In this document: positions 30,032 to 59,642 of the stretch, in pieces | Layout: each line of letters opens with the position of its first letter | How positions within the stretch are numbered: position 1 is the first letter of the stretch | Source of the DNA: Chloroflexi bacterium OHK40 | GTDB taxonomy: Bacteria; Chloroflexota; Chloroflexia; Chloroflexales; Chloroflexaceae | Length of the DNA stretch: 63,386 nucleotides | Reading direction: 5' to 3' | NCBI GenBank assembly: GCA_004367505.1 | Contig: SFCB01000194.1 | Span: 1-63,386 of the forward strand | Translations under genes and position numbers: made by a program | The notes under the pieces: generated by a model | The model's input: only the letters and a program-made list of their open reading frames with translations | Told to the model about the DNA's origin: nothing | The model's database searches: none

Positions 30032-30781
30032 ATGAGCTTTGGGTCGTGGGCGCGGCGGCTCCTGGTGGGTACGCCGTTCGAGGGCGTGGCGCGGCGGATC
30101 TACCTGGCCTTCAGCCCGGCCCGTGGCGTCCAGTACGAGCGGGAGCTCGCCGCGGTGATGCGGCGCGCCCTGCGCCCTCAGCACTGCTGCATCGATGTGG
30201 GCGCCTACCGTGGGGCCGTGCTGTCCGAGATGCTGGCCCTCGCCCCCGGCGGCACGCACTTCGCCTTTGAGCCCGCCCCTCCCCAGTACGCCTACCTCAC
30301 GCGGCGCTTCCCCCAGGTGCATACCTACCGTCTGGCCCTCAGCGATACCAGCGGCGAGACGAGCTTCTACTACGTGCGCTCGCGCCCAACCTACAGCGGG
30401 CTGCGCAAGGTGCGCTACCCCTCAGCTGGCGAGCAGGTGGAGGAGCTTCGCGTTCCCACGGCCCGGCTCGACGAAGTGATACCCTCTGAGCAGCCGGTGC
30501 ACTTCGTGAAGGTGGACGTGGAGGGCGCCGAATACCACGTCTTTGTCGGAGGCCTTGAGCTGCTCCGCCGCTGGCGTCCGCTGCTCGTCTTCGAGCACGG
30601 GCTCACCTCGGCCTGGTACTACCAGCGGCCCTCAGCCGCGCTCTACGACCTGCTGGCAGGCGAGGTGGGCTACCAGCTCTGGCTCATGCGCGACTGGCTT
30701 GATGGCCGCTCGCCCCTGGGCCGTGATGCATTCGTGCGGGCCGTCGAGGTGGACCGGCACTACTATTTCCTCGCGCAGTAG
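30032..30781 (+). CDS. FkbM family methyltransferase
   Basis: A 249-residue SAM-dependent O-methyltransferase. The SAM motif is CIDVGAYRGAVLSEMLAL, then HFAFEPAPPQYAYL and the family signature FVKVDVEGAEYHVF. FkbM-type enzymes methylate hydroxyls of polyketides, sugars or glycans. There is no membrane segment. A GAGGAG site precedes the ATG. Its partner gene upstream encodes a membrane coiled-coil protein. It is convergent with the malonyl-CoA reductase half across a 109-base gap. Confidence 0.87.
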   Translation: MSFGSWARRLLVGTPFEGVARRIYLAFSPARGVQYERELAAVMRRALRPQHCCIDVGAYRGAVLSEMLALAPGGTHFAFEPAPPQYAYLTRRFPQVHTYRLALSDTSGETSFYYVRSRPTYSGLRKVRYPSAGEQVEELRVPTARLDEVIPSEQPVHFVKVDVEGAEYHVFVGGLELLRRWRPLLVFEHGLTSAWYYQRPSAALYDLLAGEVGYQLWLMRDWLDGRSPLGRDAFVRAVEVDRHYYFLAQ

Positions 30782-30819
30782 GGCCGCCAGTGGGCCGGGG
30801 TGGGCCGCAGTGGCGGCCC
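30781..30819. terminator. GC hairpin between convergent genes
   Basis: Perfect 9-bp arms GGGCCGCCA and TGGCGGCCC around a 21-base G-rich loop, starting at the last base of the FkbM stop codon. No U-tract. A C/T-rich run with repeated CCCTGTG units follows at 30865-30890. Confidence 0.45.
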
Positions 30820-30890
30820 GGAGGCCCGGTGGCGGTTGGTTGGGCCAGGGGTCGTTCGGCGCTCCCCTGTGCCCTGTGCCCTGGCCCCTC

Positions 30891-32951
30891 CTACACCGTA
30901 ATCGCATTCCCCCGGTAGATCCGGGCGCGGTAGCGGCTCTCTTCGGGCGAGGGGAGCGGGGCGCTGGTGAGCAACACCGCCTCGACGAAGCGCTCAAGCT
31001 CCTCGTGCTCCTCGGCCGGCGTGCGTGGCTCCTCGTCGCGAGCGCGCCGCGTGAGGTCCACCTGGTTCACCGCCGTGTAGTGGCAGAGGCGCTCGCACTC
31101 GGCCCCCAGGGTGGCCGTGAAGCTGTGCAGGGTCGTCTTCACGAAGTTGGCCAGGGCGAACTCTTCCTCGCTGGAGCGGTGGGTAGTGGGCGGGGTCACG
31201 AGCACCAGGCGGGCCCGTTCCATCGTGGCGGCGCGCTGGGCCACGCGCACGTGGTGCGTGATCTGCTGCTCCACGAGCGTGACAAAGCCCTCGGCGCTGA
31301 GCACCTCCGACCAGTCACCGTCGGGGCCGGGGGCGAGCCGCACCGTGGGCAGCGGGCGGAAGGGGGTAGAGATGATCGCATCGGCGGGGCCGTAGGTGGC
31401 GCGGGCCTGCTCCAGGGCGGCTTCGAGCTCCTCGCTCGCTACCACGCTCACCAGCCGCCCGGACGCAAGGTGCGCGGGGAAGGTGGCCCCGAGCCGGGTT
31501 GGTGTCGCGTCGCTCTCGCTGATCAGGACCACACGCCCGGCGCCGTGCTCGTCGAGGAAGGCGCCGGTGAGGCGGGCGAGGTGCTCGCCCATGTGCTCGC
31601 CCACCAGGTAGACGGTGGCGCCGCGCAGCCCCGCGAGCCGCTGGGGGCTGGCCTTGCCGAAGAGTTCGCCCTCGGTGACGGCTCGTTCGAAGCGCAGGCC
31701 CCCGGTAGTGTGGAAGGTCTCCCCGCTCACGTAGGGGTCGGCCAGATGGTAGATGGTCGCGAGGGCCACGTCGTCGTTGGTGGGCAGGCGCCGGAGGTGC
31801 AGCATCCCGAGAATACGTTCGCCCACCTTGCTGCCCTCGCGCTCGTACTCAGCCTGGGTGAAGAAAGGCTCGGGAGGGCTGCGCCATGCCTCGTGTGCCA
31901 CGGAGGCCCGTCCGGCGGGGAGCGTGGCGGAGAAGTCGGTCATGGCACCGTCGGTGACCTGGGCGGGCAGGTGGCCGCCGTGGGTGAGCCGGCGCAGCAG
32001 CTTGCGGGCAAGGCGCTCGCTCAGGAAGTGTGTGCGCGAGCTTCCGGCCGGATCGCTGCTGGCCCAGATCCGCTCGGCGAGCGCGCGCAGGGCGCCGGGC
32101 TGCCGCTCATCAGCCATCACGGCGCGCACATCGTTGGCGAGGATGGCGGGGAGCAGATCGGAGATTGGCAGACCCTCGGCGCGGGTAGCGGCGTAGAGCG
32201 CGGCGTACACCTCGCCGAGGCGGCGGTTCTCAAGGATCACGCGGGCGCGGCGCTGAAACATGCTGGGGCGCTCCGCCGTGCCCCGCAGGCGGTCGCCATC
32301 GACGGGGCCGGGCGCCACGGCGTTGATCTGGATCTCGGGGCCAAGAAAGCGGGCCAGTGCCTCGACCATCGCGCGCTGGCCGGCCTTGCTCACGGCGTAG
32401 TCGGCGCGGTTGGGGTAGGCGATCGCCACGTACTTCTCACCGCCGAAGTAGGAGGAGACGTTGATCACGTGGCCGGCGCCACGGCGTTTCATCTGGGGCG
32501 CCAGGGCGCGGATGAGAGCATAGTTGCTGTTCAAATTGGCCTGGAGGCACTGGCGCCAGCCGTCGATCGGCATGTCGATCACCATGTCCTCGGTGCCCAC
32601 CACGCCGGCGTTGTTAATCAGGTAATCGACGTGGCCGAAGCGGGCCAGGGCGTTGGCGGCGAGGCGCTCCATATCGGCGGGGTTGCCAACGTCGCAGTTA
32701 GGCTCGATCACCACGCGCGCATCGGCGTCGGCGTAGCCGAGAGCGGCAAGCTCGGCGACGATTCGGTCGCGTAGCTGCTCCAGGGGGCCGGGGGTACGAG
32801 CGGCCAGGATGACCCTGGCGCCGCTCAGGGCCAGCATGCGGCCGAGGGATGCACCGATCCCTACGCTGCCACCGGTGATCAAGGCAACCTTGTCGGCGTG
32901 CAGGCCGCCCAGGCGTCGCGCGAGGGTGGATGTGGTCTGATCACGTGTCAT
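30891..32951 (-). CDS. Stand-alone C-terminal half of malonyl-CoA reductase (two SDR-type domains)
   Basis: A 686-residue protein that, from my memory of the family, lines up along its whole length with the C-terminal half (about 670 residues) of the 1,220-residue Chloroflexus malonyl-CoA reductase, including the ending RIYRGNAITV. In that enzyme this half reduces malonyl-CoA to malonate semialdehyde with NADPH, and the N-half goes on to 3-hydroxypropionate. Seen here: TGGSVGIG (26-33), NNAG (113-116), Ser166/167 in NVSSYFGGE, and YxxxK as Tyr185/Lys189, so the active domain is intact; a second Rossmann-like domain without YxxxK follows. The N-half is absent and no gene for it lies nearby. 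It is the last gene of a six-gene operon with an alcohol dehydrogenase that could supply the second reduction. Its substrate may differ from malonyl-CoA. Confidence 0.87.
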   Translation of the reverse strand: MTRDQTTSTLARRLGGLHADKVALITGGSVGIGASLGRMLALSGARVILAARTPGPLEQLRDRIVAELAALGYADADARVVIEPNCDVGNPADMERLAANALARFGHVDYLINNAGVVGTEDMVIDMPIDGWRQCLQANLNSNYALIRALAPQMKRRGAGHVINVSSYFGGEKYVAIAYPNRADYAVSKAGQRAMVEALARFLGPEIQINAVAPGPVDGDRLRGTAERPSMFQRRARVILENRRLGEVYAALYAATRAEGLPISDLLPAILANDVRAVMADERQPGALRALAERIWASSDPAGSSRTHFLSERLARKLLRRLTHGGHLPAQVTDGAMTDFSATLPAGRASVAHEAWRSPPEPFFTQAEYEREGSKVGERILGMLHLRRLPTNDDVALATIYHLADPYVSGETFHTTGGLRFERAVTEGELFGKASPQRLAGLRGATVYLVGEHMGEHLARLTGAFLDEHGAGRVVLISESDATPTRLGATFPAHLASGRLVSVVASEELEAALEQARATYGPADAIISTPFRPLPTVRLAPGPDGDWSEVLSAEGFVTLVEQQITHHVRVAQRAATMERARLVLVTPPTTHRSSEEEFALANFVKTTLHSFTATLGAECERLCHYTAVNQVDLTRRARDEEPRTPAEEHEELERFVEAVLLTSAPLPSPEESRYRARIYRGNAITV

Positions 32952-33025: not shown

Positions 33026-34720
33026 TCACGACGTGGCGGCGATCTGCTGGGCGGCCAGGTGCTCTTCGCGCAGCTGGCGCCGGAGCAGCTTGCCCGTGGC
33101 GGTCTTGGGCAGTTCGGCCACGATCTCGACGAAGCGTGGGGCCTTGTAGGCGGCCAGGCGCTCACGGCAGAAGCCGATCAGCTCTTCGGGGGTAGTCGCC
33201 GCGCCAGGCTTCAGTGATACGTAGGCCTTCACCGTCTCGCCCCGGTACTCGTCGGGCACGCCGATCACGGCCGCCTCGCGCACCGCTGGGTGCAGGTAGA
33301 GGGTGTCCTCTACCTCGCGCGGCCAGACTTTGTAGCCCGAGGCGATGATCATGTCCTTCTTGCGATCGACGATGAAGAACCAGCCCTGCTCGTCCATCCA
33401 GCCCACATCGCCGGTGTGGAGCCAGCCAGCGCGGATGGCCTGGGCCGACTCGTCGGGCTTGCGCCAGTAGCCGGGTACCACCATGGGCCCCCACGTTGCC
33501 AGTTCGCCCACACTGCCAGGGGGCAGTTCGTTGCCCGCGTCGTCCACAATTTTCACCACGGCGCCGGGGATCGGCAGGCCCACGGAGAGCGCGCCGGAGG
33601 CCGCATCCACCGGGGCGGTGGCGCCGAGGGGCACCGCGTGGGACGGCGAGGTCGTCTCGGTCAGGCCGTAGAGGTTGTGGATGTAGGCGCCGGTGCGGGC
33701 GCGGAACTGCTCGACCAGAGCCGGGGCGATCGGCGCGCCGCCGCTGAAGCACTTGGTGAGGCTGCTCAGGTCGTGGGCGGTAATCGCCGGATGGTTCATC
33801 AGCGCGTTGTAGAGCGTGATCGAGGCCATGAGGAAGCTCCCACGGCGCCGTTCGATCTGCCGCAGCAGCTCGGCCGCGTCGAAGCGATAGGTGAGGATCA
33901 CCGGGGCACCCACCAGCGCCGCCGCCGCCAGGTGGGCAATCGCGCCGGTGATGTGGAAGAGCGGCGCCGCGCCAACAATCACATCGGCCGCACTCAGTTC
34001 CATCCAGATCCGGTAGACCTCGGCGTTGTAGGCCACGTTGGCGTGGGTGTTCATCGCGCCCTTGGGCCGTCCAGTGGTGCCCGAGGTATAGGTCAGGAAG
34101 GCAATGTCGGCCGGGGCGACGGGTGCGGCAGGGTCGGCGGCACCGGCGTGGCGGCGGCAGAGTTCGAGCATATCGTCGGCGCGGGGGTGGGGCTGGCGGC
34201 TGGCCGACGCGAGCACGGCGGGGCGCTCACCAGGGCCAAGGAAGTCGAGCTCCGAGCAGGTGATCACGTGGCGAGTGGGCGTGTAGGCCACGGCCTCGCG
34301 AGCCACTTCGGCAAAGAGCGACTCGTGGGTGATCAGGGCGGTAGCACCGGAGTCGCAGAGGTGGTATTCCAGCTCGCGGGCCTTGAACATGGGGTTGAGC
34401 GGCACAACGATCGCGCCGAGCTTCCAGGCGGCCAGCTGGGCCAGCCAGTAGCCCGGAACATTCTGGAGGTAGAGAGCTACCCGGTCGCCGGCACGTACGC
34501 CGCGCGCCTCCAGGGCGGCGGCGAGGCTCGAGCTCAGGGCGTCGAGCTCGCCATAGCTGATCGTCGTGTCGAAGTAGTAGATCGCCGGGGCGGAGGGGTC
34601 GCGGCGAGCCGCGACGCGGAACTGGTCGATCGCGCTGAGGGTGGGCTCGGGCAGATCGGCGGGGATGCCCGGGGCATAGTGAGCGAGCCAGGGGCGGGTA
34701 GCGGCGATGCCAGTGGTCAT
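33026..34720 (-). CDS. Acyl-CoA synthetase (AMP-forming), LvaE-like position
   Basis: A 564-residue ANL-superfamily ligase that activates a carboxylate through acyl-AMP to acyl-CoA. The P-loop is LTYTSGTTGRPKGA; later motifs are YGLTET, GWLHTGDVG and the C-terminal lysine in PKTATGKLLRRQL. ATG 34720 follows GGAGG at proper spacing. Its neighbours (DUF6285, APH kinase, acyl-CoA dehydrogenase) match the levulinate/4-hydroxyacid operon of Pseudomonas, in which LvaE makes the CoA ester. By that context it probably activates a 4-hydroxy or 4-oxo short-chain acid; 3-hydroxypropionate is the alternative suggested by the malonyl-CoA reductase half. Confidence 0.88.
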   Translation of the reverse strand: MTTGIAATRPWLAHYAPGIPADLPEPTLSAIDQFRVAARRDPSAPAIYYFDTTISYGELDALSSSLAAALEARGVRAGDRVALYLQNVPGYWLAQLAAWKLGAIVVPLNPMFKARELEYHLCDSGATALITHESLFAEVAREAVAYTPTRHVITCSELDFLGPGERPAVLASASRQPHPRADDMLELCRRHAGAADPAAPVAPADIAFLTYTSGTTGRPKGAMNTHANVAYNAEVYRIWMELSAADVIVGAAPLFHITGAIAHLAAAALVGAPVILTYRFDAAELLRQIERRRGSFLMASITLYNALMNHPAITAHDLSSLTKCFSGGAPIAPALVEQFRARTGAYIHNLYGLTETTSPSHAVPLGATAPVDAASGALSVGLPIPGAVVKIVDDAGNELPPGSVGELATWGPMVVPGYWRKPDESAQAIRAGWLHTGDVGWMDEQGWFFIVDRKKDMIIASGYKVWPREVEDTLYLHPAVREAAVIGVPDEYRGETVKAYVSLKPGAATTPEELIGFCRERLAAYKAPRFVEIVAELPKTATGKLLRRQLREEHLAAQQIAATS

Positions 34721-34854
34721 GGGCGAGCCTCCGAGTTGCAAAGGCAGGCCGGGTGCGTTGGCCGGCTGCGCGGGTTGCCGGGCTGCGAGTCAGCCCCGAA
34801 GTGTCTCCCGGGTCGTGCGTTGAGGCGGCGGGCCGCTCCTTGGCGGGGCAGGCA

Positions 34855-35262
34855 TCAGGCGGCCTGCACGCGCTCCAGGAAGCGCGGGTTGGCAATCTGG
34901 AGCCTGGCCACCAGGGCGGCCTCGGCATAGGCGAGGGTTGCGGCGGCGAAGGGGCCGTTGTCGGCGTCACCGGCGCGGATGCGGGCGCAGAGCTCGCGGC
35001 TGAGGGCGTCGATCGCCGCCCGGAGCGCGGCGCTGTCGGCGGGCGGTGAGCCCTCGTGGCCGAGGAGCGCGGCGAGGTTGCCCCACTCCTCGTGCAGGGG
35101 TGCGTCGCCGGCGCGTAGTTCGCGTGTGACGATCGCCATCAGATTGGCGGCAATCAGCACGCGGAAGCGCAGCCGTGGATCGGACAGGGCGGGGGTCAGT
35201 TCGGTCTGCAAAAACTGGCTCACGGCGTCGGTCAGCTCGTCAGCGGTCGGGCGGTCTTGCAT
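34855..35262 (-). CDS. DUF6285 (LvaB-like) small protein
   Basis: A 135-residue, mostly helical acidic protein. The sequence pattern (RPTADELTDAVSQFL, RFRVLIAANLMAIVTREL, ALSRELCARIRAGD, PRFLERV) fits DUF6285, a family found beside APH-like kinases and acyl-CoA dehydrogenases. In Pseudomonas putida the small protein LvaB is needed for activity of the kinase LvaA on 4-hydroxyacyl-CoA. It lies between the kinase and ligase genes here, as expected for such a partner. There is no catalytic motif of its own. Confidence 0.8.
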   Translation of the reverse strand: MQDRPTADELTDAVSQFLQTELTPALSDPRLRFRVLIAANLMAIVTRELRAGDAPLHEEWGNLAALLGHEGSPPADSAALRAAIDALSRELCARIRAGDADNGPFAAATLAYAEAALVARLQIANPRFLERVQAA

Positions 35263-35329: not shown

Positions 35330-36382
35330 TCAGGGCGCTTCGTCGATGGCGCGGGCGGCGCGTTGCATGAGCCGCAGCGCCTCCAGTTCCATCTCGGCGG
35401 CGCGGCGGCCGAGGCTCACGAACTCAAGGTTGGCTTGCTCGCCCCGCAGATGGCGCCGGGCCTGATTGAGGCAGCCGATCGCCCACCAGACATTGGCGAG
35501 CAGCTCCCAGTAGGCGATCCGCGCTGGCTCTACCGGGCGGCCAGAGGCGTGGGCGTAGGCCTCGAAGAAGGGCTCGGGCTGGCCGACCCCGCCGAGGCGC
35601 AGTTCGTCCACGCCGAAGCGCCACTCGCGGATGAGGCACCAGGTGAGATCCTCGGCGTAGTCGCCGATGTGGGCGAACTCCCAGTCGATCACGCCCAGCA
35701 GGCCCGTCTCCGGGCTGACGATCACATTGCCGATGCGAAAGTCGCCGTGGACGAGCACCGGGCGGTCGGGGGGCGGGGGCTCGTGGCGGCGCAGCCAGCG
35801 CAGGCAGAGCTCCAGCGCCGGGTGCGCTTCGTCGATCGCGTCGAGCTCGGCCTCGATCTGGGCGAGGCGGGCCTGGGCGGGCGTCTGGCCGGGGCGCGGG
35901 GCTGGGAGGCGATCCCAGAGCTCGGCGCGCTCTAGATCTACGGCGTGAATGGCGGCGAGTGCCGCTCCCATCTGGGCCGGGAGCTTGCTGCGGGCCGAGG
36001 CGTAGCGCGGATCCTTGACCAGCTTGCGGCCGATGCTCTCGCCCTCCAGGCGCTCCACCAGTAGGGCCGGGGCGCCGAGCAGGTCGTCGATCAGGAGGTA
36101 GGGCGGAGGTACCGGCGCGCCCGCCGCATACGCGGCCCGATGGACCCGGTCCTCGGTGGGGAGGTCGAGCGCGCTCCCGTAGATCGCGCCGCCCAGCGGG
36201 CGCCGGAGGATCAGCGGCATGGCCCCGGCATGGACGCCGTTGTCCATACACAGGTCGAGCCGCCAGGTCTCCTGGGAGGCGCCACCGGCGATCAGGGTGA
36301 GGCCCTCGATCCAGACGTGTGAGCCGGTGGCCCGCGTGAGGGCCTGTTCGAGGGCAGTCTGAAGCGTTTGCTGGTCAGTCAC
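35330..36382 (-). CDS. APH-family kinase (LvaA / ACAD10-11 kinase-domain type)
   Basis: A 350-residue phosphotransferase with the aminoglycoside-phosphotransferase fold. The catalytic loop is VHGDFRIGN (His212, Asp214, Asn219) and the metal-binding Asp233 lies in IDWEFAHIGD, the IDWE form typical of the acyl-CoA dehydrogenase-linked subfamily. In LvaA and in the kinase part of mammalian ACAD10/ACAD11 this enzyme phosphorylates the 4-hydroxyl of 4-hydroxyacyl-CoA. It starts with GTG overlapping the TGA of the acyl-CoA dehydrogenase (GTGA), so the two are translationally coupled, mirroring the fusion seen in animals. Antibiotic resistance is not implied. Confidence 0.87.
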   Translation of the reverse strand: MTDQQTLQTALEQALTRATGSHVWIEGLTLIAGGASQETWRLDLCMDNGVHAGAMPLILRRPLGGAIYGSALDLPTEDRVHRAAYAAGAPVPPPYLLIDDLLGAPALLVERLEGESIGRKLVKDPRYASARSKLPAQMGAALAAIHAVDLERAELWDRLPAPRPGQTPAQARLAQIEAELDAIDEAHPALELCLRWLRRHEPPPPDRPVLVHGDFRIGNVIVSPETGLLGVIDWEFAHIGDYAEDLTWCLIREWRFGVDELRLGGVGQPEPFFEAYAHASGRPVEPARIAYWELLANVWWAIGCLNQARRHLRGEQANLEFVSLGRRAAEMELEALRLMQRAARAIDEAP

Positions 36383-37608
36383 GCTTGTCGCTCCCCGGCT
36401 CCCCGCTCGGTATGTGCCTCCCGCTCCGTCCCCTCGGCCCGCCGAACGAGCCGCTTCGCGATGCTCATCCGGTGGACCTCGGAGGGGCCGTCGTAGATGC
36501 GGAAGGCCCTGGTCTCACGGTAGAGGTTGGCCAGAGGGAGATCCTCGCTGATCCCCTGTGCGCCACAGATCTGGATGCAGCGGTCGGCCACCCGGTTGAC
36601 GGCTTCGGAGACGGCCACCTTGGCGATGGCCGTCTCGTGGCTGGCGCTCTGGCCCTGGTCGAGCAGCCAGGCAGCGTGCCAGATCATCAGGCGGGCGCTG
36701 TGCAGATCGATCTCGCAATCGGCGAGCGCGCTCTGGGTCACCGGATTATCGGCCAGGCGGGTGCCGAAGGCGTGGCGCCCGAGGGCGTGGGCCATGGCGT
36801 GCTCAGTGGCACGGCGGGCGGCGCCGAGCCAGCGCATACAGTGAGTGAGGCGGGCGGGGCGCAGGCGCACCTGGGCGTAGTCGAAGCCCTGGTGCACAGC
36901 GCCGAGGACGGCATCATCGCCCACCTCGCAGTCTTCGAGTGTGATCTCGCAGTGCCCGCCAATAAAGGAGCGATCGTAGATCGTCGGGCGACGGGTCACG
37001 CGGAAGCCAGGATTCGTGGCGTCGATCAGGAACATCGTGGCACCGTGCCGGCCACGCACTTCGTCGGTCCGGGCCATGAGGATGCAGAAGGCGGCCCCGC
37101 TCGCTCCGCTGATGAAGTGCTTCCTGCCGTTGATCACCCAGCGGCTGCCACGGCGTTCGGCGCGGGTCTGAAGCAGGGAAGGATCGGCGCCGGCACCAGG
37201 GGGCGGCTCGGTCATCCCGAAGCAGGAGCGCACCGTTCCGGCGGCGAGGGGGCGAAGATAACGCTCTCGCTGGGCCGGTGTGCCGATCTTCTCGATCAGG
37301 TGCATGTTGCCCTCATCGGGCGCGGCACAGTTGAGGGCCTGGATGCCGAGGGCGCTCCGGCCGGCCTCCTCGAAGATCACCGCGTTGCCCACCCAGCTCA
37401 GGCCCAGCCCGCCCCACTCGGCGCCGAGGTGCGGAAGGAAGACGCCGGCCTCGCGCGCGGCCGCCTGGAGCTCGGCGCGCAGCCCGTCCCAGGCGGCTAC
37501 GTCGTCGTCGGGGGGCATGTGGCGCTCGCGGGGGATCACGATGTCGTCGATAAAGCGGCGCGTACGATCACGCAGGGCGAGCAGGTCGGGCGGGAGCGTA
37601 AAATCCAT
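36379..37608 (-). CDS. Acyl-CoA dehydrogenase (LvaC / ACAD10-11 type)
   Basis: A 409-residue FAD enzyme. Motifs: SCFGMTEPPPGAGADPS and WVINGRKHFISGA (FAD and substrate loop), GMSIAKRLVRRAEG at the C-terminal end. The best fit is the ACAD11-like subgroup that pairs with APH kinases. In that pathway it removes phosphate from 4-phosphoacyl-CoA and yields, through an enoyl-CoA, the 3-hydroxy isomer. Frame is open much further upstream, but ATG 37608 gives MDFTLPPDLLALRDRTRRF with a ribosome site AGG nine bases before; ATG 37617 is a less supported alternative. Coupled to the kinase gene by a 4-base overlap. Confidence 0.88.
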   Translation of the reverse strand: MDFTLPPDLLALRDRTRRFIDDIVIPRERHMPPDDDVAAWDGLRAELQAAAREAGVFLPHLGAEWGGLGLSWVGNAVIFEEAGRSALGIQALNCAAPDEGNMHLIEKIGTPAQRERYLRPLAAGTVRSCFGMTEPPPGAGADPSLLQTRAERRGSRWVINGRKHFISGASGAAFCILMARTDEVRGRHGATMFLIDATNPGFRVTRRPTIYDRSFIGGHCEITLEDCEVGDDAVLGAVHQGFDYAQVRLRPARLTHCMRWLGAARRATEHAMAHALGRHAFGTRLADNPVTQSALADCEIDLHSARLMIWHAAWLLDQGQSASHETAIAKVAVSEAVNRVADRCIQICGAQGISEDLPLANLYRETRAFRIYDGPSEVHRMSIAKRLVRRAEGTEREAHTERGAGERQA

Positions 37609-37678: not shown

Positions 37679-38860
37679 TCAGTCGGCGGCGAGGGCCACG
37701 GGCCGGCGCTGCTCGGCGGCGGCGGGGAAGGCCACCAGCTGGCGCACAGCTTCGCCACGGGCGAGATTGTCGAACGCGGCGTTGATCTCATCGAGGGCGA
37801 TCGTCCGGGTGAGCAGCAGATCGACTGGCAAGATCCCGGCCTGGTAGAGGGCGATGAATCGCGGGATGTCACGCCGGGGCACGCAGGAGCCCATGTAGGA
37901 GCCCTTGAGCGTGCGCTCCTCGGCCACGAGGCTCACCGCCGAGAGGCTGAGCTGGCGGCTGGGGTTGGGCAGGCCAAGGGTGACGGTTGTCCCGCCACGA
38001 CGGGTGGCTCCGTAGGCCTGGGCCAGCACCTGCTCGTCGCCTACGCTCTCGAAGACATAGCTGGCGCCGCCACCGGTGATCTCGCGGATGGCCGCCACGG
38101 GGTCGCCGTCGGCGACGCGCACGGTGTGGGTGGCGCCGGCCCGGCGCGCCAGGGCCAGCTTGTGCTCCTGAGTGGCCACGGCCACGATCGGGTGGGCGCC
38201 GGCGGCCCGCGCGCCCATAATCACGCTCAGGCCTACCCCGCCTACCCCGAAGACTGCCACGCTCGCGCCAGCCTCAACCTGGGCGGTGTTCATCACGGCG
38301 CCCACGCCCGTCATGACGGCGCAGCCAAAGAGCGCCGCGATGCTCAGAGGGATGGATGGGTCGATCTTGACAAGCGACTCCTGGGCGGCCACAGTGTACT
38401 GCGAGAAGGCCGAAACGCCAAGGTGGTGATTCAACTCGCGCCCATCCCGGCTCCGGAAGCGTCGCGCTCCGCCGAGGAGCGTGCCGGCACCGTTGGCCTT
38501 TGCCCCGTTCTCACAAAGTGCCGCCCGGCCCGTGGTGCAGGGAAGGCAGTGGCGGCAGGCCGGGACGAAGGCGAAGATCACATGGTCGCCCGGTGCGAGC
38601 TCGCTGACGCCTGCCCCCACCTCGCGCACGACACCGCTAGCCTCGTGGCCGAGTACCATCGGCATCACCCGTGGCCGGTTCCCGTCGATCACCGAGAGGT
38701 CGGAGTGGCAGAGGCCAGCCGCGGCGATCTCCACCACCACTTCGCCCGGGCCAGGGTCGCCGAGCTGGACCTCCTCGATCGTGAGCGGGCGAGTCTCGGC
38801 GTAAGGCCCAACGTTACCGGTCCGGGTGAGCACAGCTGCGCGTGTGGTTCGCATAGGCAT
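37679..38860 (-). CDS. Zinc-dependent alcohol dehydrogenase (class III-like MDR)
   Basis: A 393-residue medium-chain dehydrogenase. Catalytic zinc ligands: Cys51 and His72/Glu73 in GHEASG. The structural-zinc lobe has Cys102, 105, 108 and 116. NAD-binding GVGGVGLS follows near 200. The loop and length match the class I/III ADH group, which includes formaldehyde and short-chain alcohol dehydrogenases. First gene of the operon, with a promoter and LysR-type box upstream. It may oxidise an alcohol precursor of the hydroxy acid, or reduce malonate semialdehyde made by the malonyl-CoA reductase half. Starts at 38860 (MPMRTT) or 38854 are both possible. Confidence 0.87.
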   Translation of the reverse strand: MPMRTTRAAVLTRTGNVGPYAETRPLTIEEVQLGDPGPGEVVVEIAAAGLCHSDLSVIDGNRPRVMPMVLGHEASGVVREVGAGVSELAPGDHVIFAFVPACRHCLPCTTGRAALCENGAKANGAGTLLGGARRFRSRDGRELNHHLGVSAFSQYTVAAQESLVKIDPSIPLSIAALFGCAVMTGVGAVMNTAQVEAGASVAVFGVGGVGLSVIMGARAAGAHPIVAVATQEHKLALARRAGATHTVRVADGDPVAAIREITGGGASYVFESVGDEQVLAQAYGATRRGGTTVTLGLPNPSRQLSLSAVSLVAEERTLKGSYMGSCVPRRDIPRFIALYQAGILPVDLLLTRTIALDEINAAFDNLARGEAVRQLVAFPAAAEQRRPVALAAD

Positions 38861-38965
38861 GTTCGGCACAGCAAAGCCCAGGCCGGTGGCCTGGGGGCCA
38901 CGGCTTGGGTCTGGCTGTCGCCGCCTTTCGTTGCTTCGCTACTCCGGGGAAAGCTACCTGTTCCT

Positions 38966-39260: not shown

Positions 39261-40160
39261 GTGGAACTACGCCACCTGATCTACTTCCGCGCGGTCGCCC
39301 GGCTGCAGCACGTCTCACGGGCCGCCGAGGAGCTGAGCGTCTCGCAGCCAGCCGTTTCGCGGCAGCTGAAGGAGCTCCAGACCGAGCTCGGGGGCGTGGA
39401 GCTGTTCCGGAAGGTTGGGCGCGGGATCAAGCTGACCCCGGCGGGCGAGCTGCTTCAGGCTCACGTGGACGAGATCCTGCGCCATGTGGAGGAGGCGCGG
39501 ATCGAGCTGACGCGCGAGAGCGCGGTGGCGGGCGGCAGGGTACGGATCGGGGCGCCACCCACCGTTGGGGAGCGCCTGCTCCCCCGCGCCCTCGGCGACT
39601 TCCACCGCCGGCACCCGGCGGTGGACCTGCTGGTGCACGAGGGGAGCAGTTCGACCCTCCTGCGGATGCTCTATGCCGGCGAGATCGACATGGCGGTCGT
39701 GACGGCGCCGGTCAATCCGCTGGGTATGGATATCCAGCGGCTCTTCGCCGAGGAGTTGATCGTCGTGCTGGCGCTGGAGCACCGCCTGGCCGACCCGGAC
39801 CGGCGCACGGTGAAGATCGCCGATCTGCGCGATGAGCACTTTCTGCTCTACTCGCCGGGCGGCTATGTGCGCGACGCTACCTTGCAGGCGTGCCGCGCCG
39901 CCGGCTTTACGCCGCGAGTCACCCTTGATAGCGGCTCGATGGAGTTGCTGCTGCAACTGGCCGAGGCGGGGCTGGGCGTCGCGGTGGTGCCCGAGCTGGC
40001 TCTGGCAGGGCGCGAGCGGCTCAAGCGGCTCCGCCTGATCGACCCGCCCCTCACGCGCGAGATGGTGCTCGTCTCGCAGCCGCCCCGGCTGCTCACCTAT
40101 GGCGCCGAGCTCCTGCGCGACCATCTGGCCGCCGAGTTGCCCAAACTGCGCCCACGATAG
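39261..40160 (+). CDS. LysR family transcriptional regulator
   Basis: A 299-residue regulator with the N-terminal winged helix (MELRHLIYFRAVARLQHVSRAAEELSVS..., about 1-60) and a type 2 periplasmic-binding fold effector domain (about 90-295). Starts with GTG after a GGAGGG site. It is divergent from the six-gene operon with a LysR-type box between, so it most likely controls that operon, perhaps with a CoA-ester or hydroxy-acid inducer. Pseudomonas uses a different type of regulator for its lva operon, so control differs even if the chemistry is shared. Confidence 0.9.
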   Translation: MELRHLIYFRAVARLQHVSRAAEELSVSQPAVSRQLKELQTELGGVELFRKVGRGIKLTPAGELLQAHVDEILRHVEEARIELTRESAVAGGRVRIGAPPTVGERLLPRALGDFHRRHPAVDLLVHEGSSSTLLRMLYAGEIDMAVVTAPVNPLGMDIQRLFAEELIVVLALEHRLADPDRRTVKIADLRDEHFLLYSPGGYVRDATLQACRAAGFTPRVTLDSGSMELLLQLAEAGLGVAVVPELALAGRERLKRLRLIDPPLTREMVLVSQPPRLLTYGAELLRDHLAAELPKLRPR

Positions 40161-51293: not shown

Positions 51294-52523
51294 TCAGTGG
51301 TGCCCCCCGGCGGCTTGCAGGCCCTCCATCTGCGGGTCGTTCAGCGGCAGCAGCGCGGCCCGCTGCATGTTCCAGGCCCAGATCGCCAGGAAGATCCCCA
51401 GTAGCCCGAGGGGCGCCGCAAAATCCAGCCAGCTAATCTCGGCAACAGTCGGGTGGAACTCGGGGAGAATGATCCACATCATATCGACGAAGCGCATCGC
51501 CAGGATCAGCGTGGCCACACCAGCCAGGTAATTCAGGTTACGCTTCGGCTTACGGCCCAGGAGCAGGAAGAACGGCACGAAGAACGTCACGAAGATCAGC
51601 GCGATCACAAAGAAGAGCCAGCCGCCCTCGATCCGGCGCAGATACCAGGGGGTAAACTCCGCCACATCACCCGACCAGATAATCACATACTGGCCGAAGG
51701 AGAGGTAAGTCCAGAGGATCGTGAAGGCGAACATGAGCTTGCCGAGGTCGTGGATCGGCTTGACCGGTACGTGCTCTTCAAAGGTGGCCGTGCGGCGAAG
51801 CTGAGTGAGGGCAATGATCAGGAAGGCCAGCGCGGTCAGGCCACTGTTGCCCATATAATGCGCGCCGTAGATCGTCGAGTACCAGTGGGCATCGAGCGAC
51901 ATGCCCACATCGAAGGCGAAGAAGGTGACGGTGAGCACAAACAGGGCCACACCGATCCCGGAGAGCCGGCGCATCCGCGTCGCGGCCGCCACCGGATCGT
52001 CTCCCCGGTCCTGCCCGAGCGACCAGCGACGCAGCAGGATGGCGATGGTGCTCCAGAGGAGGAAGTAGATCAGCATCCGCCCCGCGAACCAGGGCGCGCT
52101 CATCCAGGGCACCTTATGGGCCACAATCGGGTCGAACTCCGGAGCGCCGGGGGTGACGATATTCGGGTCGGCCCAGTGGTAGATCGGGTGATCGAAGCCG
52201 AAGGTGTTGTAGGCGGCCAAGATCACCGGGAGGCTGAGGATGAAGAAGATGGGCAGCGCGAGGGCGCCAGCCTCAAGCATGCGGCGCACCGTCACACCCC
52301 AGGCACCGCCCGTGAGGTGCTGGATCATCAGGAAGCCCAGGCACCCGAGCGGGAAGGCCATCGTGAAGTAGAAGCCGAAGATGTAGGATTTGGCAAACTG
52401 CAGCGTGTTGGTCACGAAACCGAGCGCCAGCAGCGCCAGCCCGACCACAGCCGCGCCGATCCCGAGCAGCTGCATGCGGTTGAGTTGCGGGACCCGTGTC
52501 TGCGGGAAGGTGGTTGTCGCCAT
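51294..52523 (-). CDS. actF: Alternative complex III subunit ActF
   Basis: A 409-residue integral membrane protein with about ten helices and no cofactor motif. It belongs to the ActF family, a shortened relative of the NrfD-like ActC that helps form the membrane arm of the quinol:acceptor oxidoreductase. Conserved parts include DVGMSLDAHWYSTIYGAHYMGNS and HDLGKLMFAFTILWTYLSFGQYVIIW. Gene order after actE confirms the identity. Confidence 0.92.
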   Translation of the reverse strand: MATTTFPQTRVPQLNRMQLLGIGAAVVGLALLALGFVTNTLQFAKSYIFGFYFTMAFPLGCLGFLMIQHLTGGAWGVTVRRMLEAGALALPIFFILSLPVILAAYNTFGFDHPIYHWADPNIVTPGAPEFDPIVAHKVPWMSAPWFAGRMLIYFLLWSTIAILLRRWSLGQDRGDDPVAAATRMRRLSGIGVALFVLTVTFFAFDVGMSLDAHWYSTIYGAHYMGNSGLTALAFLIIALTQLRRTATFEEHVPVKPIHDLGKLMFAFTILWTYLSFGQYVIIWSGDVAEFTPWYLRRIEGGWLFFVIALIFVTFFVPFFLLLGRKPKRNLNYLAGVATLILAMRFVDMMWIILPEFHPTVAEISWLDFAAPLGLLGIFLAIWAWNMQRAALLPLNDPQMEGLQAAGGHH

Positions 52524-52639
52524 TGCTCTCTCTTAGAATGAGTGGATCGAGGATCCGCGCGGATACCGGGTGCCTGCCGAAGGGATGAGAGCCAGCGGCA
52601 GATGTATGCCCCGGACCGAACGCCGGGATCGCCGACCCG

Positions 52640-53254
52640 TTACGGCCCCACGCTGGCCCGGTTCTCCGGGGGCACATCGTCGAGGGTGGCATTCTGACTG
52701 AGTTGCAGCGCCCGGATGTAGGCGGCGATCGCCCAGCGATCCTCCGCGTTGATGCGGGAGGCGTAGGAATACATCGACTGATAGCCGCCGTTGGCGGGGT
52801 CGCCCCGGTAGACGCCGTTGGTGATCACGTTGAAGTAGTGACCGATCGGCGCCTCGCGCAGCCGCTCCTGGTGGAAGTTGGCTGGCACAATTCCGCCCCG
52901 CTGGGCCACCATGCTCTGCCCATAGCCCGACTCACCGTGGCATACGGCGCACCAGATATTGTACTGTTGCTGGCCGCGCTCGAGCAGTTCACGGCTCACG
53001 GCGAAAGGCATCACATCGCCCTCGACGCCATCGACCAGCCCCGTATAGAGGTACTCGTCCGTCTGCGCGGCGCCCACAGCCACGGTGCCGGGCACATTCG
53101 GGCGCGAGCCCCGGCCATCAGCGAAGAAGCTGCTGGGATCGTAGGTCTGCACTTTCGGCTGGTTGTACATATCCTGGTGGCAGGCAGCGAGGAGCGCGGC
53201 CAGCAGGGCCACCCAGCCATAGCGCAGGATGCGAGTAAGGGCGGCGAGGCGCAT
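52640..53254 (-). CDS. actE: Alternative complex III subunit ActE, monoheme cytochrome c lipoprotein
   Basis: A 204-residue periplasmic cytochrome c anchored by a lipobox (LLAAC, Cys25). One heme motif CAVCH (Cys102, Cys105, His106); a later Met in GGYQSMYSYASRI is the likely sixth ligand. ActE takes electrons from the multiheme subunit toward soluble carriers or an oxidase. Length and context match ActE. Confidence 0.92.
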   Translation of the reverse strand: MRLAALTRILRYGWVALLAALLAACHQDMYNQPKVQTYDPSSFFADGRGSRPNVPGTVAVGAAQTDEYLYTGLVDGVEGDVMPFAVSRELLERGQQQYNIWCAVCHGESGYGQSMVAQRGGIVPANFHQERLREAPIGHYFNVITNGVYRGDPANGGYQSMYSYASRINAEDRWAIAAYIRALQLSQNATLDDVPPENRASVGP

Positions 53255-53265
53255 CGAGGCTTCCT

Positions 53266-53817
53266 CTAGTTGGCGACCTCAGTCACCTGCAGCGGCCCGA
53301 GCGTCCGCAGGAACTGGGAGGTCTGCGAGCGATCAAAGAGCGGGTCGGTCGCCTCGATGCAGAGGAAGAAGGCGTCCTGGGATGCGCGCTCGAAGCGGGG
53401 CACGTTGAAGGCGGGGTGGTAGGGCTGGGGCAGGCCGTTGAGCACCACCATACTGATCGCGGCGGTGAAGGCGGCCAGGAGGATCCCCATCTCGAAGGTG
53501 ATCGGGATCATCGACGGCCAGTTCGTAATATCGAGGGGGCGCCCGCCGATATTGAGCGGGTAGTCGATGATATTGCCCCAGTACTGCAACGCGAAGCCGG
53601 AGAGCGCGCCGATCACCCCGGCGATCAGCACGAGGCGTGGCACACCGGTATCGCCGGGGGCGATCTCCTCGATCACCTCCTCGATTGGGAAGGGGGTGAA
53701 GGCGTCCATCCGGCTATAGCCGGCATGCTTGGCCGCATGGGTCGCGGCCACGAGCGCCTCCGGGGTGCGGAACTCGGCCATCAGGCCGTAGATCTCAGGT
53801 GTGGCTCGATTCTGCAT
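53266..53817 (-). CDS. actD: Alternative complex III subunit ActD
   Basis: A 183-residue subunit with two membrane helices (about 66-84 and 112-134) and an N-terminal cytoplasmic part starting IYGLMAEFRTPEALVAAT, typical of ActD (DUF3341). The C-terminal DAFFLCIEATDPLFD is also conserved. ATG 53817 was chosen; the longer frame upstream has no support. It lies between actC and actE. Confidence 0.92.
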   Translation of the reverse strand: MQNRATPEIYGLMAEFRTPEALVAATHAAKHAGYSRMDAFTPFPIEEVIEEIAPGDTGVPRLVLIAGVIGALSGFALQYWGNIIDYPLNIGGRPLDITNWPSMIPITFEMGILLAAFTAAISMVVLNGLPQPYHPAFNVPRFERASQDAFFLCIEATDPLFDRSQTSQFLRTLGPLQVTEVAN

Positions 53818-53894
53818 GGTCTGCCTATCATCTCGCTCGGTCAGGCGCCGATGCGGGGTTTGGGGGCGACTACGAACGCCCGGCGCCACGCACC

Positions 53895-55367
53895 CTAATC
53901 CGCGCTGGCGGCGCTCGGATCGGCCTTACCCGTCACGATATCGCGGCCAGTATCGCCGTGCGTGGCATGCTCGCGGCGGCGCCGGCGCTCATTCTCCTGG
54001 TACTGGAACAGGCGCATCTCGAAGATATTGATCATCGGCAGGACGCGGATGAAGAGGAACGTCAGGGTGAAGAACAGCCCGAAGGTGCCGAGGTAGAGCG
54101 ACCAGTCCCAGATCGTCGGCACGTAGAGATCCCAGGATGAGGGGAGGAACTCCCGTTGCAGCGAGATCACGATGATCACATAGCGCTCGAGCCACATCCC
54201 GACACTCACGAGCAGCGAGATGATCAGGAGCGCGGGAACATTGTGGCGCACCCGCTTGAACCAGAGTGGCTGGATGGCCAGCGCGTTGCAGAAGAGCAGC
54301 CCGTAGTAGGCCCAGGCGCTCGGGCCGTTGATCCGGTTGTAGAGCAGATACTCTTCGTAGGTGTTGCCGCTGTAGAGCGAGGCCCACACCTCCATAAAGT
54401 AGCCGTAGACCACGATCATCCCGGTGGCCAGCATCACTTTGGCCATCACATCGAGGTGGCGCAGCGTGATGTAGTTCTGGTAGCCGTAGAACTGCCGGAT
54501 GGGGATCATCAGCAGCAGCACCATCGCGAAGCCCGCGAAGACCGCGCCGGCGACGAAGTAGGGAGGGAAGACCGTCACCTGCCAGCCGGGCACCTGGGAG
54601 ATCGCGAAGTCGAGAGAGATGATCGAGTGGACCGACACCACCAGGGGGGTGGAAAGGCCGGCGAGCAGCAGGGATGCCATCTCATAACGGTGCCAGTGGC
54701 GAGCCGAGCCACGCCAGCCGAGCGCCGCGATGCCGTAAGCGCGCTTGACCCAGATATTCGTCGCCCGGTCGCGCAGGGTGGCGAAGTCGGGGATGAGGCC
54801 CACGAGCCAGAAGACGAGCGAGACGCTTGCGTAGGTAGAGATCGCGAAGACGTCCCAGTCGAGGGCGCTACGGAAGTTCGGCCACATCCCGTGGGTATTG
54901 GGGTAGGGAATGAGCCAGTAGAAGAGCCAGGGCCGCCCGAGGTGCAGGATGGGGTACATCCCGGCGCAGGCCACGGCGAAGAGCGTCATCGCCTCCGCGA
55001 AGCGGTTGATCGAGTTGCGCCAGCCCTGGTTCAGCAGCAGCAGAATGGCCGAGATCAGTGTGCCGGCATGCCCAATACCAATCCACCAGACGAAATTAAT
55101 GATATCCATCCCCCAACCGACGGGGATGTTGATACCCCAGATACCCACGCCACGGATGAAGAGCCATGTGACGGACACGAAGAAGACCATCAGCATGGCG
55201 AAGGCCACGGCAAAGCCGAGCAGCCAGCCCCGTGGCGTCTTCAGCGGGGGTGTGAGCGGCACATCACCGATCTTCTGGCTGATCGTCGTGTACGTCTCAC
55301 CCGGCAGCAGGTAGAGATCGCCAGTGTCGGCCTGCGGCGTGGTGGGAAGTGGTTGCGCCTGTGCCAT
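53895..55367 (-). CDS. actC: Alternative complex III subunit ActC (NrfD-like)
   Basis: A 490-residue NrfD/PsrC-type membrane protein with about ten helices, the quinol-binding subunit. Conserved features include SVTWLFIRGVGIWGINIPVGWGMDIINFVWWIGIGHAGTLISAILLL with the His and acidic residues expected at the quinone site, and ISLDFAISQVPGWQVTVFPPYFVAGA. Its start is three bases after the actB stop, so the two are coupled. Confidence 0.94.
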   Translation of the reverse strand: MAQAQPLPTTPQADTGDLYLLPGETYTTISQKIGDVPLTPPLKTPRGWLLGFAVAFAMLMVFFVSVTWLFIRGVGIWGINIPVGWGMDIINFVWWIGIGHAGTLISAILLLLNQGWRNSINRFAEAMTLFAVACAGMYPILHLGRPWLFYWLIPYPNTHGMWPNFRSALDWDVFAISTYASVSLVFWLVGLIPDFATLRDRATNIWVKRAYGIAALGWRGSARHWHRYEMASLLLAGLSTPLVVSVHSIISLDFAISQVPGWQVTVFPPYFVAGAVFAGFAMVLLLMIPIRQFYGYQNYITLRHLDVMAKVMLATGMIVVYGYFMEVWASLYSGNTYEEYLLYNRINGPSAWAYYGLLFCNALAIQPLWFKRVRHNVPALLIISLLVSVGMWLERYVIIVISLQREFLPSSWDLYVPTIWDWSLYLGTFGLFFTLTFLFIRVLPMINIFEMRLFQYQENERRRRREHATHGDTGRDIVTGKADPSAASAD

Positions 55368-55370
55368 CGG

Positions 55371-58300
55371 CTATCCTTCTAGTTCCTCGTTCGGGTTGCG
55401 AACGCGCGCCAGATAGCTCGTTCGCGGTTTCGTGTTGAGGAAGTTCAGCACGGTGTAGTTGTGGGGCTCGGCCTTCCACTTCGCTACCCGGCTCACGGTG
55501 TCGTTGATGTCACCGAAGACGATCGCCTGGGTGGGGCAAGCCGCCTCGCAGGCCGTCGTGATCATGCCGTCGGGGATGACGTACTCCGCCGCGCCCGCCT
55601 GCACCGCCGCCTTCTTGGCCTCAATCCTGGCGGCACTGATGCGCTGCACACAGTAGCTGCACTTCTCCATCACGCCGCGGTTGCGCACCGTCACGTCGGG
55701 GTTGCGCGCGAGCTGCAGGCTGATCGTGTTCAGATCGGTGTACTGCAGGAAGTTGAAGCGGCGAACTTTGTAAGGGCAGTTGTTAGAACAGTACTTCGTG
55801 CCGACGCAGCGATTATACACCATGTTGTTGAGCCCCTCATAGTCGTGCACGGTGGCTGCGACCGGGCAAACAACCTCACACGGTGCCTTCTCGCACTGCA
55901 TACAGGTGACAGGCATCAAGTAGGTGTCGGGGTTGTCCAGGTTATCACCGGCGTAGTAGCGGTCGATGCGGATCCAGTGCATCTCGCGGCCCACCGCCAC
56001 CTGGTCTTTGCCGACGATCGGGATGTTGTTCTCAGCCTGGCAGGCTACCACGCAGGCGTTGCAGCCGATGCAGGCGTTGAGGTTGAAGGTCAGGCCCCAG
56101 GCGTTGCGGCCCTCGTAGCTCACGCTGGGTTGCAGGCTCTCGTACCCGGGCCGATCCGGATCGAAGCCGGGCTGGGTGCGACCATACTCCTCGAGGTAGA
56201 CCTCCTCGGCGATCGACTTGGGGTTGAGCTTGAACTCTTCGAAGCGCCCCACCCGGTAGATGTCGCGCCCCTCCATCGTCCAGTGGTCCTGGGTGCTCAC
56301 CAGGGGGTAGCGCCGGTTGGCGTTGCGCACCTCCACGCCGCCAGCCACGAACCAGGGCGCGGAGCTGATCCGCAGGGGGTAGACATTCACGCCCACCCCG
56401 TCGCCCACGCGGCCGGCGGCGCTGCGCCCGTAGCCAAGTGTCACGGTGATGGAGTCCTCGGCGTGGCCGGGCATGAGCCAGAGGGGCAGTTCCATCGAGC
56501 CGCCGCTGGTGTAGCTAATGCGCACCACCGTGCCGTTCACTGCCGTGATGCGCTCGAGGGCCCGCTGGCGCTCGGTGTCGTCGGGGCTCTGCAGGGCCGC
56601 CGGGTCGAAGTCCAGCCCGAGCAGGCGCTGGGCGGTGCTCGGGCTCATGAGCGCCGCGTTATCCCACACGAGCTTGGTGAGCGGACGGGGCAACTCCATC
56701 AGCCAGCCATTGTTGGCGTAGCTCCCATCATAGAGGCTCGGGTCGGGCCGGAAGACAACCTCAGGGCCGGGGCCGGGCGGCGGCGCCACGAGGTCGGCGC
56801 TGGCAGGCGTGAGGGTAGGGGTGAGCTCCGGGGCGGCCGTGCCAGCGATCACGCCACTGGCGAGGGCGCCCTGCCAGAAGGCCTCGAAGTTGCCATTGCC
56901 GTTGAAGGCACCATTGGCCTCCCAGTAGGCCCGCACGAGATCATAGGGGCGGGCGTCGGGCTGGCCGAGCAGCGCGGCGAGGATCTCGTGCGCCGTCTTG
57001 CCGCCGTAGAGGGGTTCAATCAGCGGCTGAATGATACTGGCCGTGCCATCGAAGGCGCGGGCGTCGCTCCAGCTCTCGAGACTATGGGCGGCGGGGATGT
57101 GCCACGTGCTGCGGGCCGAAGTCTCATCGACGAAGAGGCTGAGGTGGATGCTGAGGGGCACCTGGGCGAGCAGTTCGGCGAAGCGCAGGTCGCCGGGGGC
57201 GTTGTAAGCCGGGTTGCCACCCAGGATGAGCAGCAACTCGACGGCGCCAGCGCGGATCTCGTTGGCCAGCCCGGCGATCTCGCTGGTCTGGTTGGTGGGG
57301 CGGGACTCGACGGGCTCGGTATAGATCACCGTGCTCCCGACGTTGCCGAGGGCGGCGTTGATGCGGTGGGCCAGTTCGTGGACAGCGGGGGGCTGCTGGT
57401 CGCCGGGGATCACCACGCAGGCGCCGCGGTTCGCCTCCAGATCCTCGGCGACGCGATCGAGGAAGGCCTGAGCCGGCGCCGGGAGCTCGCTGTCGCTCAC
57501 CCCGGCAACGCCAAGGCGGGCGGCGAGGGCAACGGTGAAGGGCGCGACGAGGCTCGCCCGGAGTGGGAGGCGGTGATCGGCCGTGGCGCCCGTAGAGGAG
57601 GGGGTCGCCTCCACCACGTAGAGCCGGTTCATCTCCGCGCTTTCCTTCGTCACCCGGCGGCCGTCGGCGAAGGCACGGGCGTAGGCGCCGAAGCCCGGCC
57701 CGGGGGCGAGAAAGTCGGCGTCGAGGGCGAGCACCACGCGGGCCTCGCCGAGGGCGTAGCGGGTGCTCACATCGGCGCCGAAGGCGCGGCGAGCGCCCTC
57801 AACCACGTTGTCGCGGTTGATCGGCTCGTACTGGTACCAGCGGGCCTGGGGGAAGCGCTCCGCAACCCTGGCCAGCTGGTCGGCCAGGGTCGGCGAGGTT
57901 ACGGTGGTTGTCAGGATGCGGATTCCAGCACCCTGGACGGTGGCCTGGGCGGCGAGGGCGTTGGCGAGGGTGGCGGTAAAGTCGGCCCAGGAGCTCGGGG
58001 CGCCACGGCTCAGCACGCGCTGCGAGCGGTCCGGGTCGTACATCGTCAGGATCTCGGCCTGGGCGAAGAGATCGGTTCCGCCGAGGCTGGCGGGGTGGCC
58101 GGGGTTGCCCTCGATCTTGGTCGGGCGGCCCTCGTCGGCGCGCACGAGCACACCGGAGGCGTAGCCGCCGAGGGTGACGGCCGAGGCGAAGAACTGGGGG
58201 ATGCCAGGCACACGCCCCAGGGGCTGCTGGGCGAAGGGGGCCAGCTTCTCCTGGGGCATGTAGGTGCAGCCGGTCACGCCGGCCAGGGCCAGCGAGGCCC

Positions 58301-58499: not shown

Positions 58500-58533
58500 G
58501 CGGCTACCATCTAGCATCAGGCATGGATTCGGC

Positions 58534-59539: not shown

Positions 59540-59642
59540 AGGTACCGTGGGCGCGGCGGCGGGGGTATACTGAGGTCACACCGATGGCCAGCCCCACAGC
59601 GCGATGCTACGCAGCGTCCACGTGCAGCAGGAAGGAACACTC

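Follow-up and report, generated by a model that had tools for sequence, protein, structure and literature searches.

Why should a genome that encodes a fused malonyl-CoA reductase (MCR) also carry the C-terminal half of that enzyme as a gene of its own, and what might the half do there? The question is raised by a stretch of 63,386 nucleotides (the window), which is contig C61 of the draft genome of Chloroflexi bacterium OHK40, a bacterium of photosynthetic type (6.93 Mb, 301 contigs, 3.5% estimated contamination). A sequence-only reading had proposed that one gene in the window encodes the C-half of the bifunctional Chloroflexus enzyme end to end, beginning at its own ATG at the domain border and keeping Ser/Tyr185/Lys189, and that no N-half is encoded nearby.

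Identity of the 686-residue protein

The gene runs without interruption on the minus strand, from an ATG at 32951 to a stop codon at 30891-30893. Its codon-position GC (0.72/0.50/0.88) identifies the minus strand as the coding frame, and an ORF of 743 aa lying over it on the plus strand is a shadow of GC bias. Long antisense frames lie over minus-strand genes at 30543-32774 (743 aa), 33290-34930 (546 aa) and 55461-58514 (1017 aa), all on the plus strand; these are shadows of high third-position GC.

When the protein was compared with PDB sequences using phmmer, residues 11-686 aligned with the C-halves of the full-length MCR chains 8hi4 (E 4e-250) and 8hjw (E 9e-248), and the solved MCR C-halves were matched as well. 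Ordinary SDRs formed the next family, with E values of 1e-24 or weaker. This gap in score rules out an identity as an ordinary SDR or as a fatty acyl-CoA reductase, the latter being the match that the sequence-only reading had regarded as fatal to its proposal. An AlphaFold2 model built on 36 sequences (pLDDT 87.5, pTM 0.89) superposed on the solved MCR C-half 8j2b with TM scores of 0.92/0.97 and an rmsd of 2.0. Alignment and superposition show that the SDR3-ED-SDR4 fold spans the whole length of the protein. The start codon is located about 10 residues ahead of the first residue homologous to the MCR C-half, the SDR1-SDR2 N-half is not in the same chain, and no N-half is encoded within the window. 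The protein is almost certainly an MCR C-half, and the earlier description of its extent, start and surroundings was borne out.

Residue roles were taken by mapping the protein onto the Roseiflexus MCR, in which catalytic, malonate-site and NADPH-site residues have been assigned (PMC10470521). The catalytic triad is kept, as had been claimed (Ser167, Tyr185 and Lys189; Roseiflexus Ser731, Tyr749 and Lys753), together with the YxxRxxY motif (Tyr179, Arg182 and Tyr185; Roseiflexus Tyr743, Arg746 and Tyr749). Also kept are the arginines of ED and SDR4 (Arg221, Arg235 and Arg621; Roseiflexus Arg785, Arg799 and Arg1164) and the NADPH-site residues S29, R52 and D87 (Roseiflexus Ser593, Arg616 and Asp651). 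Judged by these residues, the protein may possibly reduce malonyl-CoA to malonate semialdehyde.

Origin of the separate half

The same genome holds a full-length fused MCR on contig C187 (a 1255-aa frame whose C-half is 57% identical to the window protein), so the 686-aa gene is a second, paralogous copy. A full-length mcr adjacent to the separate gene, which would have spoken against a natural split, was looked for and not found, the fused gene being on another contig. A genome-wide search for a separate N-half returned only the fused C187 gene, followed by single-domain SDR-sized frames. The earlier suggestion that the rest of the genome be searched therefore had a divided outcome: the half is not the organism's only MCR, but no separate N-half accompanies it. 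Propionyl-CoA synthase is also present; it shares 74% identity with the protein of the Roseiflexus locus and has one internal stop in the draft.

The window contig looks native. Lon on this contig is 83-84% identical to the proteins of same-family genomes, GC and codon usage of the contig match those of the fused mcr contig, and codon usage of the C-half gene is like that of other genes on the contig. The Lon identity and the codon usage argue against a contaminant contig.

Separate halves are rare. Among 61 close genomes, one, from another genus of the same family (G016), has a separate C-half (a 700-aa frame, 67-70% identical to the window protein) in addition to a fused copy. In the best 80 loci of an 84,980-species collection, stand-alone halves were seen only at L044, which is G016, and at L079; the rest were fused or cut by a contig end. 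No stand-alone C-half beyond the window gene was found among 301 Chloroflexota, and 39 matches in an alphaproteobacterial family (398 genomes) read as fused, save one partial frame. The public record SM1_231_1 (L044, L060) is labelled Gracilibacteria and carries Chloroflexales-type genes, so the name is evidently wrong.

The L079 half (L079:6438-8774) belongs to the Ca. Chloroheliaceae L227-5C MAG, from type I reaction-centre Chloroflexota. It is preceded by about 45 residues of the N-half end, no N-half was found in the L079 genome, and it is an independent truncation. Ca. Chloroheliaceae L227-5C has been described as lacking the potential for the 3-hydroxypropionate bicycle, apart from malyl-CoA lyase (PMC10972752). 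Genes resembling those for PHA synthase, phasin and thiolase are found near the L079 half.

In a maximum-likelihood tree of 37 MCR C-halves, the window and G016 copies were paired (100/100) on a long stem branch (0.54), inside a Chloroflexales clade (99/99) otherwise made up of fused enzymes. The SDR1 domain of the N-halves was then used alone as outgroup because the whole N-half is too diverged (about 17% identity); the pair again fell inside the Chloroflexales fused clade, with moderate support. The best trees did not favour a basal place for this C-half, the point that the sequence-only reading had wished to check. AU tests rejected none of the other placements (p 0.09-0.48): neither a position of the pair next to the Chloroflexales fused enzymes, as their sister group (p 0.48), nor one further out, outside other fused groups (p 0.22-0.26). 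The nesting in the fused clade is not significant.

Because the best trees nest the pair inside the Chloroflexales fused clade, a duplicated fused gene that lost its N-half is favoured, but not proven, over a pre-fusion origin, and the stand-alone half probably derives from a fused enzyme. The sequence-only reading had left the choice open between a split before fusion and one after loss of the N-half. The split looks natural but not primitive; the trees favour loss, and the AU tests still admit other placements. It is quite improbable that the half is a relic from before MCR-N and MCR-C were fused. The AU tests would allow such a position outside other fused groups, but the best trees do not show it, also when rooted with the SDR1 domain. 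In addition, 78 of the best 80 loci are fused genes or apparently fused genes cut by a contig end, and the only other stand-alone half, that of L079, keeps its remnant of the N-half. Decay is more improbable still: a non-functional fragment of a duplicated mcr, or a contaminant, would be consistent with the longer stem branch and with a fragmented draft of some estimated contamination, but the frame is intact, all catalytic residues are kept, the copy in another genus has stayed recognizably similar, and codon usage and Lon tie the gene and its contig to the host family.

The operon and its conservation

The C-half gene is the last of six minus-strand genes, with a divergent LysR gene alongside (Table 1). 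The order is zinc alcohol dehydrogenase, acyl-CoA dehydrogenase (ACAD) of the ACAD10/11-LvaC type, LvaA-type kinase, DUF6285 protein, acyl-CoA ligase and MCR C-half. The alcohol dehydrogenase and ACAD genes are 70 bp apart, the ACAD and kinase genes overlap by 4 bp, and the remaining gaps are, in order, 67, 134 and 74 bp; the second of these would shrink to 113 bp with a ligase start at the TTG at 34741. This setting was unexpected and is the most informative feature of the locus.

Table 1. The MCR C-half gene, the other genes of its operon and the divergent regulator (positions in the window)
Feature	Position	Strand	Details
Stand-alone malonyl-CoA reductase C-half (SDR3-ED-SDR4)	30891..32951	-	686 aa; sequence match, fold, residues
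AMP-forming acyl-CoA ligase (FadD-like; LvaE role)	33026..34720	-	564 aa from ATG 34720; Pfam AMP-binding + AMP-binding_C
DUF6285 protein	34855..35262	-	135 aa; PF19802
APH-fold kinase, LvaA/ACAD11-kinase type	35330..36382	-	350 aa; HGDFRIGNV, VIDWE motifs
Acyl-CoA dehydrogenase, ACAD10/ACAD11/LvaC type	36379..37608	-	409 aa from ATG 37608; Arg + HCMR, catalytic Asp (IYDGPSEVH)
Zinc medium-chain alcohol dehydrogenase (class I/III ADH-like)	37679..38869	-	396 aa from GTG 38869; ATG 38860 also possible
LysR-type regulator, divergent	39261..40160	+	299 aa

The top PDB match of the operon ACAD is human ACAD11 (2wbi). A motif alignment revealed the upstream arginine, the HCMR motif and the catalytic aspartate, a combination reported to set ACAD10/11 and LvaC apart (PMC12440821). 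The kinase is nearest to ACAD11-type kinase structures and has both catalytic motifs, and the DUF6285 protein resembles LvaB in position and size only. In the lva pathway, LvaE forms the CoA ester, LvaA and LvaB phosphorylate the 4-hydroxyacyl-CoA, and LvaC removes the phosphate (PMC6692424). No LvaD-type single-domain SDR, or other SDR besides the C-half, is present among the six operon genes. Elsewhere in the window, a probable alternative complex III operon occupies 51294-59193 on the minus strand (an NrfD-type membrane protein, a 1048-aa Fe-S protein and neighbours), and an NDH-2-like gene at 59604 adjoins it.

The operon is conserved in two genera. Contig C558 of G016 carries a divergent LysR gene, whose start adjoins the operon there too, followed by genes for proteins identical to those of the window at 80% (ADH), 84% (ACAD), 67-80% (kinase), 61% (DUF6285) and 63-82% (ligase). 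Behind the ligase gene this contig ends within a tandem CAGGAGT repeat, and contig C577 opens with the same repeat and continues into the MCR C-half; the G016 operon was joined across this break. The repeat, which lies between the ligase and C-half genes at L038:5930-6062 and L159:1-30 (C577/C558), evidently broke the assembly. This assembly has low coverage, and its frame breaks are probably errors. The MCR C-half very probably works with the other products of the operon.

Related modules occur without the C-half. In another genome, G037, and in Thermus, kinase, ACAD and DUF6285 genes are found together without an MCR C-half but with an SDR gene nearby, and on Thermus megaplasmids DUF6285 directly adjoins the kinase and ACAD. 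Among the 61 relatives, DUF6285 was confined to the five genomes whose ACADs are closest. Because it consistently accompanies LvaA-type kinases and ACAD10/11-type dehydrogenases in both Chloroflexota and Thermus, DUF6285 probably serves the kinase. Cupriavidus has genes for kinase, ACAD, SDR, CoA transferase, ligase and Fe-ADH together, a grouping that counts in favour of the recruitment proposed below.

Possible substrate and route, and known systems

Five positions that are invariant in 80/80 fused enzymes are altered in both stand-alone copies (T135C, G230S, L231M, P415T and F568V, window numbering). In addition, K573 (K in 73/80 fused enzymes) is R/Q and L576 (76/80) is T in the stand-alone copies. 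By alignment, G230-L238 adjoins Arg235 of ED, and F568-L576 lies within SDR4. Positions in the pocket region are remodelled in this way. The change of the CoA-binding Leu795 (Roseiflexus numbering; Leu in 80/80 fused enzymes) to Met231 in the window and G016 copies is conservative and accessory, and has more bearing on substrate range than on membership of the family. A laboratory-evolved C-half carries N940V, K1106W and S1114R, K1106 being at the pocket-closing interface between SDR4 and ED (PMC10470521); the natural halves have Y/F, R/Q and R, respectively, at these positions. Because two of the three also vary in fused enzymes, this overlap is suggestive only.

We propose that the gene arose from a paralogue of the bifunctional MCR by loss of the N-terminal half, which reduces the semialdehyde, and that it was then taken into a LysR-linked 4-hydroxyacyl-CoA operon as its last gene. 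There its most likely role would be that of an NADPH-dependent acyl-CoA reductase, or CoA-acylating semialdehyde dehydrogenase, for a short dicarboxyl-CoA. We infer the substrate, the direction and the link between steps as follows. The C-half would reduce succinyl-CoA to succinate semialdehyde, which the zinc alcohol dehydrogenase, replacing the lost half, would reduce to 4-hydroxybutyrate. The ligase would form 4-hydroxybutyryl-CoA, the LvaA-type kinase with DUF6285 would convert this to 4-phosphobutyryl-CoA, and the ACAD10/11-LvaC-type lyase would release crotonyl-CoA and Pi. Such a phosphorylation route would not be redundant, because the 4-hydroxybutyryl-CoA dehydratase family (PF03241) is absent from both the host genome and G016. 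As a whole, loss of the N-half and recruitment to a 4-hydroxyacyl-CoA operon is the best explanation and has about an even chance of being correct; the C4 succinyl-CoA/4-hydroxybutyrate route is put forward more tentatively. Several observations count against this explanation. None of the malonate-clamping arginines has been lost, and malonyl-CoA may therefore still be the substrate; an external 4-hydroxy acid could be degraded by four of the six gene products (ligase, kinase, DUF6285 and ACAD), for which no reductase would be needed; the G016 operon had to be pieced together across a contig break; the kinase-ACAD-DUF6285 module exists without the C-half in G037 and Thermus; the AU tests give no significance to the nesting in the fused clade; and the likeness of DUF6285 to LvaB is one of position and size only.

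A rather unlikely alternative is that the half has remained strictly specific for malonyl-CoA, yielding malonate semialdehyde that the alcohol dehydrogenase and ligase would take through 3-hydroxypropionate to 3-hydroxypropionyl-CoA, as an inducible, unfused 3-hydroxypropionate branch. The complete set of malonate-binding residues is consistent with this, as are the residues at the laboratory-evolved positions and the finding that a laboratory-made separate C-half is active and performs better than the fused enzyme (PMC3779250). However, the genome already encodes the fused MCR and propionyl-CoA synthase for the same flux, the five altered positions are invariant in fused enzymes, and there is no obvious role for the kinase and the ACAD10/11-type lyase, whose known counterparts act on 4-hydroxyacyl-CoAs. 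The succinyl-CoA route, in contrast, gives every operon gene a role.

It is unlikely that the operon is catabolic and the half-enzyme works in reverse. The alcohol dehydrogenase would then oxidise either a diol or a hydroxy acid, giving an aldehyde that the C-half with CoA and NADP+ would convert to an acyl-CoA, while ligase, kinase and ACAD would send 4-hydroxy acids to beta-oxidation. Inducible catabolic operons typically have a divergent LysR gene and an acid-CoA ligase, the lva operon is itself catabolic (PMC6692424), and the C-half activity is of the CoA-acylating aldehyde dehydrogenase type (PMC3779250). But members of the enzyme family are known to work with NADPH in the reductive direction, Arg52, which binds NADPH, is kept, and a single hydroxy acid would be oxidised by two parallel, redundant routes.

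If the succinyl-CoA route operates, it would suggest an oxygen-tolerant path that leads from succinyl-CoA to crotonyl-CoA. Natural and synthetic CO2-fixation cycles use this segment, for which they otherwise depend on an iron-sulfur dehydratase. It would be a long shot that some Chloroflexaceae run, or can run, a bacterial, oxygen-tolerant 3-hydroxypropionate/4-hydroxybutyrate-type route, in which fused MCR and propionyl-CoA synthase lead to succinyl-CoA, and a C-half retuned to succinyl-CoA, with the phosphate-elimination pair of kinase and ACAD, leads on to crotonyl-CoA without the iron-sulfur dehydratase.

MCR-C, its active laboratory separation (PMC3779250) and the ACAD10/11-Lva chemistry are already known; a search of the open-access literature, limited in extent, found no report of a natural stand-alone MCR-C in such an operon. 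Engineers have split the MCR halves on purpose; the same split also exists in nature, and the genetic context seen here is new. Half of a CO2-fixation enzyme has apparently been reused in a different pathway. The gene also makes available a natural C-half in which evolution has changed the pocket region.

With the C-half of the Chloroflexus/Roseiflexus bifunctional MCR (PDB 8j2b, 8hi5, 8a30), the window protein shares 55-60% identity, the SDR3-ED-SDR4 architecture, Ser-Tyr-Lys, YxxRxxY, both malonate arginines and the NADPH-site residues. It differs in having no N-half, in the five altered 80/80-invariant positions (L783M/Roseiflexus L795 among them) and in being a second copy in its genome, in another operon. 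The laboratory-dissected C. aurantiacus MCR-C (PMC3779250) is likewise a C-half alone, with nearly the same border, whereas the half described here is natural, occurs in two genera, is genetically tied to other enzymes and has no MCR-N alongside. An LvaA-type kinase, an LvaC-type ACAD with HCMR, a small protein beside the kinase and an acyl-CoA ligase are shared with the Pseudomonas putida lva operon and mammalian ACAD10/ACAD11, but in place of LvaD, a single-domain SDR that acts on levulinyl-CoA, there are a zinc alcohol dehydrogenase and the MCR C-half. The proposed order of steps from succinyl-CoA to crotonyl-CoA resembles the 4-hydroxybutyrate branch of the archaeal HP/HB and DC/HB cycles, except that here the reductase is of the SDR type and, with no 4-hydroxybutyryl-CoA dehydratase (PF03241), kinase and ACAD would substitute for it.
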